Below, one piece after another: positions 15,055-63,600 of a stretch of DNA of 64,000 nt. Position numbers and translations under genes: made by a program. The notes below the pieces were generated by a model. That model did not search any database and had not been told where the DNA came from. It worked only from the letters and a program-made list of their open reading frames with translations. The DNA comes from an uncultured Chitinophaga sp. (lineage in GTDB: Bacteria; Bacteroidota; Bacteroidia; Chitinophagales; Chitinophagaceae): positions 1 to 64,000 of the forward strand of contig NZ_CAMLHC010000012.1 in assembly GCF_946479755.1 (NCBI RefSeq), written 5' to 3'. Positions within the stretch are counted from its first letter, which is position 1. Every line of letters starts with the position of its first letter.

Positions 15055-15909
15055 ATGTCCATGTCTGTTTTACCAACGTTGAAGTATAAACGAATTTTTA
15101 CCTGGCTGCTCCTGGTATTCGTAGCAATGTTCCTGCTCCGTCTGTTGTACGGCTATACGTATTCCCACAGGGACGAAAACGTTAGCCAGGGGGAGAGTTT
15201 TCTCTCGCAGGTACAGCAAAAAAACTATGCCTCTGAGAAAAAAATCCAGGTGAAAGGAGATGTGGCCCCAGTACCGGCAGCTTCCAGTCAGAAATATGAA
15301 AAAGTAGCGTATGTAAGCTCGCGCTCTACCAGCTTTACGGAAGATGAAAAGCAGTTGCACGGCACCATCCGTCAGTTTGGCGCCATCATCCAGTACCAGC
15401 AGGAGTCTGGCAACAAGGGCAATCGCGATCTCCGGCTGATGATCGGGGTATCGCCGGATAAGTTTGATTCCTGCTACTATGCGATCCAGAGAATCGGCAC
15501 GATCAAATCTACCAGCATCACCAAAGTGGACAAAACAAACGAATACCGGAAACTCAATGCCAGCAAGGTATCTATGGAGAAAAACCTGGCGTCGCTGAAC
15601 AGCCTCACTTCTCAGCCCGGTAAGATCGACGAACGTATATTACTGCACGAAAAAATCGCAGAAGTAGAACGGCAGCTGCAGGAGCTGGGCGTGGAACTGG
15701 GCAACTTCGATGTGGAAAACGAATTTTGCACCATACAGTTCAGTATGTATGAAGGCGCGGCGGAACGGGGCATTCCCTTCTATTCGCGGGTAAAGACAGC
15801 GCTCGAATGGACCGTGAAATATTATGTAATGCTGATGACCGGTCTGTGCCTGGCGTCGCTGGGCGCCTGGCTGCTGCTGAAAGTACTGACCATGATAAAA
15901 ACATCATAA
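15055..15909 (+). CDS. DUF4349 domain membrane protein
   Basis: A 284-residue protein from ATG 15055. An ATG at 15028 lies only 1 bp past a likely -7 box, so 15055 or 15061 is a better start. It has an N-terminal membrane helix, a periplasmic DUF4349-type domain (about 80-240) that includes a coiled-coil stretch in the second half (ILLHEKIAEVERQLQELG), and a C-terminal membrane helix (about 255-275) just before the end. The DUF4349 topology with helices at both ends is typical. The family's function is unknown; some members sit beside anti-sigma factors, but none is seen here. Confidence 0.82.
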   Translation: MSMSVLPTLKYKRIFTWLLLVFVAMFLLRLLYGYTYSHRDENVSQGESFLSQVQQKNYASEKKIQVKGDVAPVPAASSQKYEKVAYVSSRSTSFTEDEKQLHGTIRQFGAIIQYQQESGNKGNRDLRLMIGVSPDKFDSCYYAIQRIGTIKSTSITKVDKTNEYRKLNASKVSMEKNLASLNSLTSQPGKIDERILLHEKIAEVERQLQELGVELGNFDVENEFCTIQFSMYEGAAERGIPFYSRVKTALEWTVKYYVMLMTGLCLASLGAWLLLKVLTMIKTS

Positions 15910-16075
15910 ATCATTCAGCGATTTTTTGATGTACGATTTTTGAATTTCGGGATTGATAAAACGAGAAGACCGGAGCGATTAAAACCCGCTCCGGTCTTCT
16001 CGTTTATCGGTCCAAACGTCGTACATCAAACTTTTATCAATCCCAAAATCCGTAAATCCCAAAATTCCAAAATCC
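15910..16075. repeat. Intergenic palindromic element with terminator hairpin
   Basis: The space between the DUF4349 gene (+) and the metallophosphoesterase gene (-) is filled by nested inverted repeats. The core is a perfect 17-bp stem, 15961-15977 paired with 15987-16003, with a 9-nt loop. Around it, words such as TTTGATGTACGA and GGGATTGATAAAA occur on one side and their complements on the other, in changed order. The stem can act as a terminator for both convergent genes. Its beginning abuts the upstream stop codon. Confidence 0.65.
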
Positions 16076-17308
16076 CTAAATGGTATACTCGCCGACCTTA
16101 GTTCCGTCGTCGCGCAGCATGGTGAGTGTGAGCTGCTTTTGATCGGCTTTTATTTTGATCAGCGTGCGTTTGCCTTCCTGGGGGCCTCCGCCGATGATCA
16201 GCGGGTAGTTATGCTGGCCGGCGACCGGGGCATGCACGCCATAGGTGTGTGTATGGCCGCATACGAGCAGATCTATTTTGTATTTATTGAACAACGGGCC
16301 GAAGAGCTGGCGGCAATGCGAAGCGCCGTGCCAGTCGCCGCCGTGGTAGTGGGGGATGTGCATCAGCACTACTTTGTGTTTCGCTTTTTTATAGGCCGGG
16401 CTTTGCAGCTGCTTTTCCAGCCAGTGGGCCTGCTCTTCGCGGTAGCCGTCGAAGTCGGCGATGCCGGCATATACGGGCGCGCTGTCTTCCTTGTCTTCCC
16501 CGGTGTCCAGCACAATGGCGTGTACGGGTCCCCAGGTAAAGGAAAAGTAGCTGCCATGGCCCGGGTTGTCGAAGTACTGATGCCATTCACGGGCGTATTT
16601 GCCGCGGGTTTCGTGGTTGCCTCTCACATACATAAAAGGTTTTTGGGTGGAGAAGGTGTCGCCGCAGGGGGAGAGCAGGTGGTCGATGATCTGTTGTTCG
16701 TTGGATTGATAGTCGAACATATCACCGTTGAAGAACACAAAATCGTAGGGGTCGTTGCCGTTGAGGCCCATCAGGTGGGGGATGGACTTGGGACGGTCGT
16801 GGATATCGTTGAGCATGAGCCAGGACACTTCTTTCGCCTGCGTATCGGGCGCAGTGAAAGTGTAGGTGTCGCTGGTGAGGGTGTTGCCGTAAGTGAGTTT
16901 ATAGGGCTGAAAATCGGTGATTTCCTTGGAGAGCACGCGGTAGCTGTATTGTTTGCCCGGTTCGAGGTGGGATAGTTCTATCCGGTGGAGTTTGTTGTTG
17001 GCGTCTACCAGTCCTTTCGTTACGCGGTGGGCTTTCCGGTTGAGCTGTCCGTCGGTGCCGTATTCCACCCAGCTGTAGCAGGGGCGGGAGGTGAGCCACA
17101 TGACCGCGACGGTGTCGGGGGCGGGCATTTGCAGGTAGGGTTTGCACAGGAAGGCATGGGCGGGCTCATCGGCAATGGCGGTGGTGGTGTCGGTTTTACG
17201 GGCAGCGCCGGCAGCGAGGGGCGCCAGGCCGGTGACGCCCAGCAGTCCTGCTTTGGACAGGTTGCCCAGGAAGCTGCGGCGTGACAGTTCATTGTTCATT
17301 TTCTTCAT
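16076..17308 (-). CDS. Tat-exported metallophosphoesterase (purple acid phosphatase-like)
   Basis: A 410-residue protein from ATG 17308 (MKKMNNELSRRSFLG); an upstream ATG at 17353 is less likely. The Tat motif SRRSFLG precedes a hydrophobic stretch ending in AAGAA, so export to the periplasm is predicted. An N-terminal fibronectin/PAP-like domain (about 50-155) is followed by the metal-binding motifs LNDIHD, NGDMFD, RGNHE, HIPHYH and CGHTHTYG, which give the dimetal phosphoesterase core. The substrate is unknown. The gene faces the DUF4349 gene and is followed upstream by 340 bp that include the atpD promoter. Confidence 0.85.
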   Translation of the reverse strand: MKKMNNELSRRSFLGNLSKAGLLGVTGLAPLAAGAARKTDTTTAIADEPAHAFLCKPYLQMPAPDTVAVMWLTSRPCYSWVEYGTDGQLNRKAHRVTKGLVDANNKLHRIELSHLEPGKQYSYRVLSKEITDFQPYKLTYGNTLTSDTYTFTAPDTQAKEVSWLMLNDIHDRPKSIPHLMGLNGNDPYDFVFFNGDMFDYQSNEQQIIDHLLSPCGDTFSTQKPFMYVRGNHETRGKYAREWHQYFDNPGHGSYFSFTWGPVHAIVLDTGEDKEDSAPVYAGIADFDGYREEQAHWLEKQLQSPAYKKAKHKVVLMHIPHYHGGDWHGASHCRQLFGPLFNKYKIDLLVCGHTHTYGVHAPVAGQHNYPLIIGGGPQEGKRTLIKIKADQKQLTLTMLRDDGTKVGEYTI

Positions 17309-23194: not shown

Positions 23195-23373
23195 GATGGC
23201 CATGATTATCGCTGATTTTCCTGATTTACGAAGATGTAAGCGGATAGTGAAGGATATAAACGAGAAAGCACCCGACGCGGGTGCTTTCTCGTTTATCGTC
23301 GATGATATTAAACGTTATCAAATGCGGTGGTCATCTCCGGTAATCATGAAAATCAGCGATGATCATAGCCATC
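23195..23373. repeat. Intergenic palindromic element with 42-bp outer arms
   Basis: Between the ThiF-like gene (+) and the LD-carboxypeptidase gene (-), outer arms 23195-23236 and 23332-23373 are imperfect inverted copies of about 42 bp, with a handful of mismatches. Within them is a perfect 17-bp stem (23258-23274 with 23278-23294, AAACGAGAAAGCACCCG and its complement) that can terminate both genes. The left end starts 4 bp after the stop codon of the ThiF-like gene, and the right end touches the stop codon of ldcA. Confidence 0.75.
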
Positions 23374-24277
23374 ACAGCTTCAGGGTGCTGCGTAATTCAC
23401 CCACTTTCAGCTCGTGCTTCATACCCAGTTTCAGCGAATAGTTCTCCTGCTGATGCCCGGAAGGGAAGCCGAAACATACCGGGTAGTCGTATTCCTTCAC
23501 GATATTGTGGATGATCTCGTATTCGGTCTGACCGAAAGGCGTCGTAGTTTCCCTGCCATCGGTGAATGCGCCTACCACCAGGCCGGCGAGTTTGTCGAGC
23601 CACCCGGCGCGTTTGAGATTATACATCATCCTGTCGATATTATAGCGGTACTCTCCGATATCTTCGAGCAGGAGAATTTTATCTTTGGTATCGATCTGCG
23701 ATTTGCTGCCGGAAGCGTTGGCCAGCAGGGAGAGGTTGCCACCCACCAGCAGGCCGGAAGCGCTGCCCTCGCGGTTCAGTATATGCGAGGCCGTAGTATA
23801 CCGGTAGGACTTGCCCTTGAGCACGGCCGCCAGGCTGTTGACGTATTCATCCTCCGCTGTTTCCGGCGTGATGCCGCTGCACATCAGCGAGTGGATGGTA
23901 GGGATGCCGTAACGCTGATGGATATGGGCATGCAAAGTGGTCACATCGCTGTAGCCACAGAGCCATTTGGGATGCTTGCGGAAACGGGTAAAATCGAGCT
24001 TGTCAAGAATACATACCATACCGTAGCCGCCGCGTCCGAACACGATCGCCTTTATTTCGGGATCATCCAGCATGTCCTGCAGCTCTTCGAGCCGAAGCTC
24101 GTCCGGCGCAGAGAAATTATGAAAACTGGTACCCACCGTGATGCCCAGATGCACCCGGTAGCCCCAGGATGAAATCACGCCGGCAGCATATTCAGCCGAC
24201 TGCAACTCCATTTTACTGCTGGGGCACATTACTCCTATCAGATCGCCTTTTTTCAGATATGGCGGAATTTTTACCAT
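23372..24277 (-). CDS. ldcA: LD-carboxypeptidase (S66 family)
   Basis: A 301-residue serine peptidase of family S66, which removes the terminal D-amino acid from muramoyl tetrapeptides in cell-wall recycling. The nucleophile serine lies in GYSDVTTLH (about 110), the catalytic Glu in LLEDIGEYRYNIDRMM (about 210) and the His in FGFPSGHQQENYSL (about 275). It begins MVKIPPYLKKGDLIGVMCPSS, a normal start without signal peptide, so it acts in the cytosol. The gene is alone and divergent from metG; its 3' end meets the palindromic element. Confidence 0.93.
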   Translation of the reverse strand: MVKIPPYLKKGDLIGVMCPSSKMELQSAEYAAGVISSWGYRVHLGITVGTSFHNFSAPDELRLEELQDMLDDPEIKAIVFGRGGYGMVCILDKLDFTRFRKHPKWLCGYSDVTTLHAHIHQRYGIPTIHSLMCSGITPETAEDEYVNSLAAVLKGKSYRYTTASHILNREGSASGLLVGGNLSLLANASGSKSQIDTKDKILLLEDIGEYRYNIDRMMYNLKRAGWLDKLAGLVVGAFTDGRETTTPFGQTEYEIIHNIVKEYDYPVCFGFPSGHQQENYSLKLGMKHELKVGELRSTLKL

Positions 24278-26529: not shown

Positions 26530-26718
26530 TCACGCAAAGAAATATAAGTAAGCAAAGAACGCGAAGGAGCGAAGACCACCTTTCTGATCTGTGTTGTATG
26601 TACGATCTCCGTCATACTCAAACAAATACGATCTGAAAGGTGGTCTTCGCTCCTTTGCGTTCTTAAACTATCAGCAAAAAACTTTGTGTCTTTGCGAGCC
26701 GCCGGTGTCTTTGCGTGA
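26530..26718. repeat. Intergenic palindromic element with CGCAAAG-type ends (A)
   Basis: This 189-bp element starts on the first base after the metG stop codon. The ends TCACGCAAAGA (26530-26540) and its complement (26708-26718) are a perfect 11-bp terminal inverted repeat. Inside, arms 26561-26584 and 26635-26658 match as inverted copies at 23 of 24 positions. Further CTTTGCG words occur in the right part. It contains no gene, and sits between metG and the FadN-type gene. Confidence 0.75.
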
Positions 26719-26758
26719 AAAAAAATCCTAAATTCAAGGATCATAAAAGGCTAAAGCT

Positions 26759-40746: not shown

Positions 40747-40940
40747 GCCCGTAAAGCCGTATAGAGCGCGCAAAGCAATCAAGGAAATAATATAATAAAT
40801 TTTAATATTTTTCTTGCTTGCTTTGCTTTTGTATGCTTTGTTGCGGAACGTCTTTGTGTGCAACAGGGATGGCCGTGTTGCCTGCGTAAGGCGTAAGCCT
40901 TTGCGCGCTTAAAATTCTTCTCCGTGTTCTTTGCGAGAGA
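40747..40940. repeat. Intergenic palindromic element with CGCAAAG words (B)
   Basis: It starts on the first base after the rel stop codon and ends 2 bp before the purA promoter. CGCGCAAAG occurs at the left (about 40667+100) and its complement at the right, CTTTGCGCGC (about 40900), with a second CTTTGCGAGAGAA at the far right end (about 40929-40941). An inner stem pairs 40770-40788 with 40807-40826 (imperfect). It resembles elements A and the GxxExxY-bearing element by sequence words, not by full alignment. No gene inside. Confidence 0.6.
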
Positions 40941-60630: not shown

Positions 60631-61995
60631 ATGGGACGCAAATTACTGTTAGACAAAGCACACATAGAAGGTATCCGGTATTACGACACTTACCGGGCTA
60701 ACGGCGGTTATGCTGCGGCGGAGAAAGCTCTGAAATCCATGGGCCCCGAAGCAGTAGTGGAAGAAGTAAAGAAGAGTGGCCTGAGAGGCCGTGGTGGCGC
60801 CGGTTTCCCTACCGGCCTGAAATGGAGCTTCATCGCCAAACCGGAAGGTGTTCCGCGTTACCTCGTTTGCAATGCGGACGAATCAGAACCGGGCACATTC
60901 AAAGACCGCTACCTGATGGAGTTCATCCCTCACCTGCTGGTGGAAGGCCTGCTGATTTCCAGCTTCGCCCTGGGCGCTAACAGAGCCTATATCTATATCC
61001 GCGGCGAATACGCCTGGATACCGGACATCCTGGAACAAGCCATCGCCGAAGCCAAAAACAAGGGCTGGCTGGGGAAAAACATCCTCGGTACCGGTTATGA
61101 TCTCGACATATTCGTACAACGTGGCGCCGGCGCCTATATCTGCGGTGAAGAAACAGCCCTGCTGGAATCACTGGAAGGTAAACGCGGTAATCCCCGTATC
61201 AAACCGCCATTCCCGGCCGTAAAAGGGCTGTGGGGCTGTCCTACGGTGGTCAACAACGTGGAAACCATTGCTGCCGTAGTGCCCATCGTTAATATCGGCG
61301 GCGATGAATACATCAAATTCGGCATCGGCAAATCCACCGGTACCAAACTGATCTCCGCCTGCGGTAATATCAACAAACCCGGCGTTTATGAGATCGAAAT
61401 GAACATCTCTGTAGAAGAATTTATTTACTCAGACGAATACTGCGGAGGCATCAAAGGGGGTAAACGCCTGAAAGCCTGTATCCCGGGCGGTTCTTCCGTA
61501 CCGGTGCTGCCTGCCAACCTGCTGCTGAAAACAGCGAAGGGCGAAACCCGTATGATGACCTACGAAAGCCTCAACGACGGTGGTTTTGCTACCGGCTCCA
61601 TGCTGGGCTCCGGCGGTTTCATCGTAATGGACGAAGACCAGTGTATTGTACGCAATACCCTCACCTTCGCCCGTTTCTACCACCACGAAAGCTGCGGCCA
61701 GTGCAGCCCGTGCCGCGAAGGTACCGGCTGGATGAAAAAAGTGCTGCACAACATCGAATACGGAAAAGGTAAAATGAGTGATATCGACCTGTTGTGGGAT
61801 ATCCAGCGGAAAATTGAAGGCAATACCATCTGCCCGCTCGGCGACGCCGCCGCATGGCCAGTGGCTGCTGCCATCCGCCACTTCCGCGACGAGTTCGAAT
61901 GGCACGTGACCCACCCGGACGAAGCGCTGACGCGCAACTTCGGCCTGGCCCACTACGCCGATCCGCTGCCCGCACCGGCACCAGCCGCTGTGTAG
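60631..61995 (+). CDS. nuoF: NADH-quinone oxidoreductase subunit F
   Basis: A 454-residue subunit with the FMN and NADH sites and cluster N3. GLRGRGGAGFPTGLKW (about 50-65) and CNADESEPGTFKDRYL mark the NADH/FMN site, RGAGAYICGEETALLESLEG the FMN pocket, and the cluster ligands are SCGQCSPCREGTGW (about 353-366) and the later Cys in NTICPLGDAAAWP. The last residues are Ala/Pro-rich. Directly after its stop codon begins the element that carries the GxxExxY gene. Confidence 0.97.
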   Translation: MGRKLLLDKAHIEGIRYYDTYRANGGYAAAEKALKSMGPEAVVEEVKKSGLRGRGGAGFPTGLKWSFIAKPEGVPRYLVCNADESEPGTFKDRYLMEFIPHLLVEGLLISSFALGANRAYIYIRGEYAWIPDILEQAIAEAKNKGWLGKNILGTGYDLDIFVQRGAGAYICGEETALLESLEGKRGNPRIKPPFPAVKGLWGCPTVVNNVETIAAVVPIVNIGGDEYIKFGIGKSTGTKLISACGNINKPGVYEIEMNISVEEFIYSDEYCGGIKGGKRLKACIPGGSSVPVLPANLLLKTAKGETRMMTYESLNDGGFATGSMLGSGGFIVMDEDQCIVRNTLTFARFYHHESCGQCSPCREGTGWMKKVLHNIEYGKGKMSDIDLLWDIQRKIEGNTICPLGDAAAWPVAAAIRHFRDEFEWHVTHPDEALTRNFGLAHYADPLPAPAPAAV

Positions 61996-62503
61996 TTCTC
62001 GCAGAGAATTATAAGAGAGCCAAGGCGCGAAGATTGTTTTCTGATATTCTTAACCCACTAATATTTCATCCATTGACAGAAAACGAAATCTCCCGGGAGA
62101 TTGTGGACGCATGTTATATAATACATGTGAAATATGGTCCCGGTTTGTATGAGTCGGTTTATGAAGAACTTCTGAGTTTCGAATTGCGTAAACGAAAGAT
62201 ATATTTTTCAAGACAGGAGGATATAAAGCTGGTTCATGATGGCTTAGTGCTGGAAAAGGCATTTAGGGCGGACCTGATAGTCGAAAATAAAGTGATCGTT
62301 GAAATAAAATCAATAGAGGAACTCAAGGATGTCCATTACAAACAAGTATTGACATATCTGAAGTTGACCGGATTTAAATTGGGATTATTGATCAATTTCA
62401 ACGTAGCATTAATAAAAACAGGAATACACAGAATAGTTAATAAACTGTAAAAAACATAAACTTTGCTTCTTAGCTCTCTTAAAAAGCTTTGCGAGCAAAA
62501 AAT
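61996..62503. repeat. Inverted-repeat-bounded element carrying a GxxExxY gene
   Basis: The element lies between nuoF and nuoG. Its left arm (61996-62040) starts on the first base after the nuoF stop codon, and its right arm (62451-62503) ends 8 bp before the nuoG start. The arms are imperfect inverted copies of about 40 bp (roughly three quarters identical by eye), sharing CTCGCA, TAAGAGAGC, AAG and TTT blocks. The enclosed gene is visibly AT-richer than nuo genes. CGCAAAG words are shared with elements at 26530 and 40747. Confidence 0.7.
62073..62450 (+). CDS. GxxExxY-family PD-(D/E)XK nuclease-like protein
   Basis: A 125-residue protein from a TTG at 62073 (the upstream frame is open but not family-like). 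The GPGLYESVYEELL motif (about 26-38) gives the GxxExxY name; the PD-(D/E)XK-like core lies in FRADLIVENKVIVEIKSI, with the Asp and the E-x-K (VEIK). VLTYLKLTGFKLGLLINFNV follows, as in the family. The family's role is unknown. Codon use and base content look unlike the neighbouring nuo genes. It is set between nuoF and nuoG inside an inverted-repeat element. Confidence 0.82.
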   Translation: MTENEISREIVDACYIIHVKYGPGLYESVYEELLSFELRKRKIYFSRQEDIKLVHDGLVLEKAFRADLIVENKVIVEIKSIEELKDVHYKQVLTYLKLTGFKLGLLINFNVALIKTGIHRIVNKL

Positions 62504-62511
62504 ATATCAAG

Positions 62512-63600
62512 ATGGCGGAGGAAAAAAAATTATTCAAGGTTAAGATCGATAACATCTCCGTGGAGGTCGAACCTGGTACTACGATACTGAATGCGGCCCG
62601 GACAATAGGAGGGGATGTGGTACCGCCGGCTATGTGCTACTACTCCAAGCTGCAGGGCAGCGGTGGTAAGTGCCGCACCTGCCTGGTAAAAGTAACCAAA
62701 GGCTCCGAGGCCGACCCGCGCCCGATGCCTAAACTGGTGGCCAGCTGCCGTACCACCGTAATGGACGGTATGGAAGTGGCCAACATCACTTCTCCGGAAG
62801 TACAGGAAGCCCGTAAAGGTGTGGTGGAATTCCTGCTGCTCAATCACCCGCTCGATTGCCCCGTTTGCGACCAGGCTGGTGAATGCGACCTGCAGAACCT
62901 GAGCTATGAACACGGCGCCGAAGCTACCCGCTACGAATTCAAACGCAGAACTTTCGAAAAAATCGACATCGGCGACAAGATACAGCTGCACATGACCCGC
63001 TGCATCCTCTGCTACCGCTGCGTATTCACTGCCGATCAGCTTACGGAAAAACGCGAACACGGCGTACTCGGCCGTGGTGACGCTTCCGAGATCAGCACCT
63101 ATATCCATCAGTCACTCGACAATAACTTCATCGGCAACGTGATCGACGTTTGCCCGGTAGGCGCCCTCACCGACAAAACCTTCCGTTTCAAAAACCGCGT
63201 ATGGTTCCTGAAACCGGTAGATGCCCACCGTCACTGCGAAGACCCGAAATGCTGCGGTAAAACAGTGCTCTGGATGCGTGGTGACGAGGTGTTCCGCGTC
63301 ACTGCCCGTAAAGACAAATACGGCGAAGTGGAAAACTTTATCTGCGATACCTGCCGTTTCGATAAAAAAGAAAAATCAGACTGGATCATCGAAGGCCCCC
63401 GCAAAATAGACCGTCACAGTGTTATTTCCCAGGGCCATTACGTGAATACCGTTAAACCGAAAGATCCGCTGGTGGAAGTGCTGGACGGAAGACAGCCTAA
63501 ACTGCTGTTCGATATCCATACCACCAGTGAGGTGAACCGGCCGGAAATAGATCTCTCTAAGATCGACGGTCCTGCCCATTCGGACGATTTTAATAAGTAA
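62512..63600 (+). CDS. nuoG: NADH-quinone oxidoreductase subunit G (short form)
   Basis: A 362-residue Fe-S subunit. The [2Fe-2S] site is in CYYSKLQGSGGKCRTCLVKV (about 43-62), then NHPLDCPVCDQAGECDLQ (the His/Cys ligands of N5 and neighbours), and CILCYRCV for a [4Fe-4S] cluster. It ends long before the usual 700-900 residues of E. coli-type NuoG, so the molybdopterin-like half is missing; short NuoG is known in Bacteroidota as far as I recall. It is followed by a 36-bp gap with GTAATTC repeats, then nuoH. Confidence 0.93.
   Translation: MAEEKKLFKVKIDNISVEVEPGTTILNAARTIGGDVVPPAMCYYSKLQGSGGKCRTCLVKVTKGSEADPRPMPKLVASCRTTVMDGMEVANITSPEVQEARKGVVEFLLLNHPLDCPVCDQAGECDLQNLSYEHGAEATRYEFKRRTFEKIDIGDKIQLHMTRCILCYRCVFTADQLTEKREHGVLGRGDASEISTYIHQSLDNNFIGNVIDVCPVGALTDKTFRFKNRVWFLKPVDAHRHCEDPKCCGKTVLWMRGDEVFRVTARKDKYGEVENFICDTCRFDKKEKSDWIIEGPRKIDRHSVISQGHYVNTVKPKDPLVEVLDGRQPKLLFDIHTTSEVNRPEIDLSKIDGPAHSDDFNK

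Follow-up and report, generated by a model that had tools for sequence, protein, structure and literature searches.

What is a gene for a nuclease-like GxxExxY protein doing within a pair of inverted arms in the middle of the nuo operon? We addressed this question in a 64,000-nucleotide stretch of an uncultured Chitinophaga sp. (assembly GCF_946479755.1, contig NZ_CAMLHC010000012.1, positions 1 to 64,000), here called the window, in which the gene for a 125-residue protein (62073–62450, plus strand) lies between nuoF, ending at 61995, and nuoG, starting at 62512, as an original prediction had placed it. That prediction had gone on to propose that the protein may mobilise or maintain a repeat family to which its arms belong. 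Comparison with other genomes revealed that the nuo insert is a single instance of a widespread architecture of armed genes. Related genomes that have such a gene also contain many palindromes without a gene that use the same short words, which suggests a pairing of gene and palindrome akin to a known one that involves a different, unrelated enzyme. We give about even credence to the reading that the GxxExxY protein is a resident factor maintaining, and sometimes spreading, its cognate palindromes in a manner like that of RAYT-REPIN systems, with binding, cutting, copying and causal direction as the parts that we infer. The observations behind it are the architecture, the match between protein subtype and arm words, the match between palindromes and resident genes in the genus, purifying selection and conserved catalytic residues.

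Inverted arms and the subtype of the enclosed protein

The left arm occupied 61998–62040, beginning 2 bp past the nuoF stop as had been described, and the right arm 62453–62495 (both plus strand), each being 43 nt long with 74% complementarity between them. Their local score of 16.5 was reached at none of 1671 same-spaced positions of the window, where the maximum was 11.0, in agreement with the imperfect arms of about 40 bp that had been noticed; the right arm had been said to end 8 bp ahead of nuoG, but the ungapped arm stops 16 bp ahead of it. The protein scored 135.3 bits against TIGR04256 (GxxExxY; cut-off 35, profile positions 1–116 of 116), which bears out the family assignment, and PF13366 (PDDEXK_3, 131.2 bits) was the sole Pfam match of the gene.

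Similar arms were found around GxxExxY genes elsewhere. At 22 of 29 genus and order loci (from a set of 30; L009 among them with masked bases) the arms beat all 100 shuffles, with words differing among loci. A phylum set was composed of the window, 30 loci from the genus search and 30 plus 60 further loci, 121 in all, of which 118 were used (L029 without a match, two too short) and which include near copies and are therefore not independent; in this set the arms were above the 95th percentile of mispaired arms at 78 of 118 loci and above the 99th at 52. A GTDB scan, from which the best 80 of 587 confirmed stretches were retained and 79 were usable for the arm test, gave arms above the 99th percentile of same-locus controls at 59 of 79 loci, compared to 0.8% of the controls. 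The record titles of this set named Bacteroidetes groups, Nostoc, Anabaena, Planctomycetota, Verrucomicrobiia, Pyrinomonadaceae, Ignavibacteria and a few others. The counts of 78/118 and 59/79 speak against the possibility, raised with the original prediction, that GxxExxY genes of relatives regularly lack such arms.

The arms are runs of words of about 8–10 bp. In the GTDB set the word CRCDRAG occurred in both arms at 58/79 loci in inward orientation versus 13/79 in the opposite one. Gaps between successive CRCDRAG words numbered 425 inward versus 123 opposite, both peaking at 9–10 nt. Sorting the loci by protein revealed that the subtype predicts the arm words: GPGL-type genes had CRCDRAG in both arms in 66/88 cases (opposite orientation, 13/88), and GNGFQEVIYQR-type genes in 0/16, having GATT words instead in 13/16 (opposite, 6/16). 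The remaining 16 of 120 loci, belonging to smaller subtypes, followed no clear word rule. Base composition alone as the cause of the likeness between arms was ruled out by the mispaired, same-locus and opposite-orientation controls.

The PD-(D/E)XK-like core that had been suspected is supported by alignments and predicted structure alike. The motif residues of the window protein are E27, D67, E77-x-K79 and Q91xxxY95; in an alignment of 41 proteins D67 and K79 were invariant and E77 was present in at least 90%. The predicted structure (predicted local distance difference test, pLDDT, 96.1) has helices and strands in the alpha-beta-beta-beta-alpha-beta order of the core, so that alignment and model together provide the catalytic D, the E-x-K and the core fold of the superfamily; no solved structure with related sequence was found at E up to 1. 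We read the protein as a small predicted PD-(D/E)XK nuclease resembling Cas4 and lambda exonuclease, from which it differs in its size of 125 residues, its single cysteine (residue 14) and its nuo neighbours. Cas4 nucleases are defined by an iron-sulphur cluster held by four cysteines; as the window protein has only one, there is no such site and membership in Cas4 was rejected. The gene evolves under constraint, the ratio of nonsynonymous to synonymous rates (dN/dS) being 0.17 between the copies of the window and G001 (G numbers denote the genomes compared); most other pairs of nuo copies were saturated at synonymous sites.

Gene-free palindromes and resident genes

If the protein is linked to a repeat family, gene-free copies of its arms would be expected elsewhere. 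The original prediction had pointed to CGCAAAG in both arms and to gene-free elements at 26530 and 40747. The right arm does hold the word (as CTTTGCG, at 62487); the left arm reads CGCAGAG. Since CGCAAAG, with 21 occurrences on both strands of the window, ranked only 8 among 210 letter-permuted words, its presence by itself carries little weight within the window. A word-cluster scan detected four clusters, two at 26534–26714 and two in the nuo arms, versus 0.8 per shuffled window. The first element (26531–26717, without strand) is a clear gene-free palindrome of GCAAAG-type words directly behind a stop codon; G001 and G012 share it at this position, whereas G023, G024, G020 and G028 do not. 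The second (40747–40938, without strand), also directly behind a stop codon, is degenerate, was missed by the scan and was recognised by eye; elements with clearer arms stand at this site in G001 and G012 and none in the same four genomes. It was also noticed by eye that all three GCAAAG-type elements of the window start immediately behind a stop codon (after 61995, 26530 and 40746). Other gene-free palindromes of the window, at 15890–16081 and 23200–23400, contain GATTT-type words and lie beside or around terminator-like hairpins; they vary among the window, G001 and G012 (by eye).

The comparison was extended to 36 genomes of the nearest genus, 12 of which carry one intact resident GxxExxY gene each. 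GCAAAG pairs numbered 17–289 in the seven carriers with the gene at the nuo site and 0–26 in 28 of the 29 other genomes, the remaining one being G028; a permuted-letter control word gave 2–16 pairs across all 36. TGATTA pairs numbered 60, 141 and 414 in the three genomes with a TGATTA-armed gene and 0–26 in the other 33. Thus the arm words recur as gene-free pairs away from the genes, and the repeat family is amplified in those genomes of the genus that have the cognate gene. Across the phylum (148 genomes, with G202, below the family cut-off, counted as a non-carrier), at least five CRCARAG pairs were found in 32/73 carriers versus 3/75 others.

Genes of the four-helix family TIGR02436, which are unrelated to GxxExxY, also proved to be armed. 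TIGR02436 was searched in all 36 genus genomes (25 + 11), and its genes (L076–L105, L399–L402) stand in inverted arms of short tandem words; the arms were above the 99th percentile of same-locus controls at 19 of 27 loci tested out of 30. The arm words of the G001/G012 gene, with up to two mismatches, occurred 50 and 108 times in these two genomes and 109 times in G030, where the corresponding locus holds a broken copy; the other 56 of 59 genomes searched had none. The remaining four-helix carriers of the genus have words different from those counted here. In G028 a four-helix element occupies the 26530 site, where the window has its gene-free GCAAAG element. By eye, positions 26720–26757, behind this element, resemble the tail of the four-helix open reading frame (ORF) that G028 and G034 have at this site (L400, L399); by this likeness a four-helix element may have given way to the palindrome.

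That two unrelated protein families share one armed architecture, that a single site holds either a four-helix or a gene-free element, and that G028 and G005 have gene-free copies without the cognate gene would all be expected if the arms were an independent palindrome family moved by a third factor, with the GxxExxY and four-helix genes as cargo or hosts inside some copies. Such a factor would leave two patterns to be accounted for, namely that arm words follow the protein subtype and that each of the three idioms peaks in genomes with the cognate gene or its remnant. RAYT was rejected as the mover: in a search restricted to PF01797 among transposase families, it was missing from all but one of the 10 genus genomes whose genes have GCAAAG or TGATTA arms, and the lone RAYT, in G001, had no GCAAAG pair within 1.5 kb. 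We regard a third factor as rather unlikely. The wider proposal, that resident proteins of each kind (the GxxExxY subtypes and, independently, S23-like four-helix proteins) maintain their own gene-free palindromes in a protein-specific code of words of about 8–10 bp, in several phyla and independently of tyrosine and HUH transposases, is put forward tentatively, at somewhat less than an even chance.

History of the nuo site and rewriting of the elements

With the window, the genus comparison comprised 37 rows. The insert was present at the nuoF-nuoG site in 7/36 genomes and the window (8/37 rows), so that it is not a fixture of all relatives; the 29 unfilled sites have 22–116 bp between the genes, and in G020 the 96 bp kept there still read by eye like a gene end and a right arm. 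In the nuoF tree the eight filled rows fall into one clade of 15 (support 99/97) and require three changes, and in the GxxExxY gene tree the eight nuo copies group together apart from seven outgroups (100/97). Most simply, this reflects a single old insertion within one clade, followed by losses. The gene tree pairs G017 with G018 (100/99) and the nuoF tree pairs G017 with G023 (100/99); since an approximately unbiased (AU) test rejected the latter pairing for the GxxExxY gene (p 0.0024), an in-place exchange of at least one nuo copy is probable. Outside the nuo site, G012 has a further GxxExxY copy, which is broken by three stops (G012:C1:3554518-3554703).

The sites examined for gene-free elements were mostly intergenic (by eye), and among near relatives they are stable, both arms being rewritten together. 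Comparing G001 with G012 over 280 kb showed eight recognised gene-free hairpins at the same sites in both genomes; by eye, both arms of a copy had gained or lost the same words, and long word series were common to copies within one genome. Since these eight hairpins keep their sites, maintaining and rewriting fits better than frequent jumping, and of the two roles originally offered for the protein it is maintenance that is preferred, mobilisation by the protein being kept as hypothetical; the original interpretation is thus borne out in part. In about 114 kb of G019 and its sister G020, which has lost the gene, the lone gene-free hairpin was without its words in G020, its flanks being 96–97% identical; this word decay concerns one site only.

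The joint change of both arms at fixed sites in G001 and G012 could also arise if template switching during replication kept the arms of hairpins alike, the gene having no role. Hairpin-templated mutation of this kind makes no prediction that the abundance of an idiom should track which gene, and which subtype of it, is resident, nor that words decay after gene loss as in G020, and we judge it very unlikely as the sole explanation.

Clean presence and absence of elements was seen between more distant species. When five TGATTA elements of G028 were compared with G003 and G005, two were absent from both, where another hairpin stood instead, one was present in G003 and not in G005, one was altered in both and the remaining one was ambiguous. 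The two elements at sites empty in G003 and G005 end in TTGTC...GACAA and stand where those genomes have another hairpin (by eye), in flanks too diverged to delimit a target duplication. In addition, TGATTA-type elements nested within other such elements in G028 (L317 and L316; reversed joined index 20880 and 57577; by eye) suggest that hairpin tips are targets.

Under a maintenance role, the GxxExxY protein would recognise the arm words of its own subtype in an extruded hairpin or cruciform and cut there, driving copying between elements; repair from another copy would rewrite the arms, so that both arms of every copy stay matched, and this copying would keep the gene-free palindromes of a genome in the same idiom as the resident gene. 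Occasionally an element would be inserted at a new position, in many cases one formerly occupied by a terminator hairpin. The recognition and cutting steps are proposed because arm words match the protein subtype and the nuclease motif is intact, the copying and rewriting steps because of the concerted arm change and the pattern of gene presence.

Several results weigh against this role. Four-helix genes have the same armed architecture and no nuclease core, from which it follows that recognition, rather than cutting, may be the common part. Among arms, 23% of mispaired ones also pass in the GTDB set; as loci share words, part of the score stems from word sharing and not from pairing. Between roughly one fifth and one third of the GxxExxY loci have no arms detectable by the thresholds used, and in only 5 of the 8 nuo copies is the left arm best matched by its own right arm. 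Elsewhere in the phylum there are up to 12 GxxExxY matches per genome, unlike a single resident gene. Within the genus, 62 GCAAAG pairs occur in G028, whose nuo site is without the gene and which carries a TGATTA-armed one instead, and 26 TGATTA pairs in G005, which is without any GxxExxY gene; G002 and G030, with GNGF-type genes, have only 5 and 4 TGATTA pairs and few GCAAAG pairs, their own arms being weak or in words other than those counted. On the nuoF tree only two independent pairs on supported branches were available, and the cut of 17 GCAAAG pairs was chosen after the counts had been seen; with only two contrasts the genus pattern by itself has no phylogenetic significance. A clade of the window, G001 and G012 was not rejected for the gene tree (AU test, p 0.22). 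Across the phylum, taking 2 or 4 own-arm hits off per gene left 19/73 or 14/73 carriers versus 3/75 others (Fisher p 0.00015 and 0.004), and the Mann-Whitney test on the corrected counts was not significant (p 0.11 and 0.77). Part of the CRCARAG excess is likely to be the genes' own arms; large gene-free populations therefore occur only in a minority of carriers, and the notion that GxxExxY carriers always hold gene-free copies was rejected across the 148 genomes.

These results bear on a further possibility, that gene and repeats were co-inherited in a few clades without any functional link. It agrees with the position of all nuo-filled genomes in the one clade of 15, with three changes, and with the proximity of the three genomes with the four-helix idiom on the nuoF tree. 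Inside that clade, though, all seven carriers have at least 17 GCAAAG pairs and 5/7 non-carriers at most 10, and permutation within 12 families across the phylum gave p 5e-5 without correction, but only 0.03 and 0.12 once own-arm hits had been taken off; coincidence of this kind seems highly improbable.

The nuo neighbourhood and known systems

Upstream of the insert, nuoF (60631–61995, plus strand) matched TIGR01959 with 590 bits (cut-off 558.65); downstream, the nuoG-like gene (62512–63600, plus strand, 362 residues) matched TIGR01973 with 285 bits, below the cut-off of 470 and over profile positions 1–259 of 606. The GC content of the gene and insert is 35% versus 55% in nuoF and 53% in nuoG, in line with the AT-richness noticed before. 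The frame of the GxxExxY gene is open from 61854, and its start at 62073 is TTG; by eye, the ATG start of G012 and G024 is lost in the window and G001 through an extra T, leaving TTG, so that expression of the window gene may be weakened.

The position of the insert within an operon, right behind the nuoF stop, and the co-folding of the arms as RNA at -43 kcal/mol (a value without a shuffled control) are compatible with an RNA-level element, whose arms would pair in the transcript and be excised by RNase III, or would tune the nuo mRNA, with the gene riding along. On this account the many scattered gene-free copies, and the words common to the palindromes of a genome and its resident gene, are left unexplained; a PD-(D/E)XK domain suggests a DNA substrate, and neither the insert nor the window had an Rfam match, by which a known RNA element was rejected. 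We consider this account improbable. The closest model for it is the intervening sequences (IVS) of 23S rRNA, in which a small ORF is enclosed by complementary arms; the nuo insert shares this anatomy, as do the TIGR02436 four-helix genes, but it lies outside rRNA, encodes a nuclease fold and has abundant gene-free relatives, and with its position between nuoF and nuoG and no Rfam match in the window it was not assigned to the IVS. According to PMC4990558, the IVS contain an S23 ORF, and RNase III cuts them out.

The likeness to RAYT-REPIN systems lies in a resident gene flanked by the repeat, many gene-free palindromes and more copies in carrier genomes, all seen in the genus with G028 and G005 as exceptions; PMC8049555 reports that RAYT genomes hold more palindrome copies. 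As in those systems, GxxExxY is almost absent from phage and plasmid records. Phage origin was rejected on 0/50,697 phage records and plasmid carriage on 8/72,556 plasmid records, all typed non-mobilizable; a non-exhaustive scan of IMG/VR with one peptide pattern gave at least three GxxExxY loci. The differences are that the arms are runs of words in an idiom varying with protein subtype, that genomes elsewhere in the phylum can have several matches, and that GxxExxY is a PD-(D/E)XK protein whereas RAYT is an HUH/Y1 transposase; because its enzyme belongs to another superfamily, the GxxExxY system is not a member. The gene-free elements also resemble miniature inverted-repeat transposable elements (MITEs) in being short, scattered and mostly intergenic at the sites examined (by eye), with inverted ends, but no transposase with matching ends was found in the search for PF01797, and the candidate partner gene, itself enclosed by such arms, does not encode a known transposase. 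A known defence gene was rejected, the single PADLOC match being weak (14.7 bits), and no paper on the function of GxxExxY or on these arms was found among the open-licence papers searched.

If the link between protein and palindromes is true, it would provide a testable function for the GxxExxY and S23-like four-helix proteins, both of which are widespread families, and a second route to REPIN-like palindrome populations. It would also explain many short-word intergenic palindromes in Bacteroidota and beyond, and the question lends itself to direct testing because some sister species differ in whether they have the gene.
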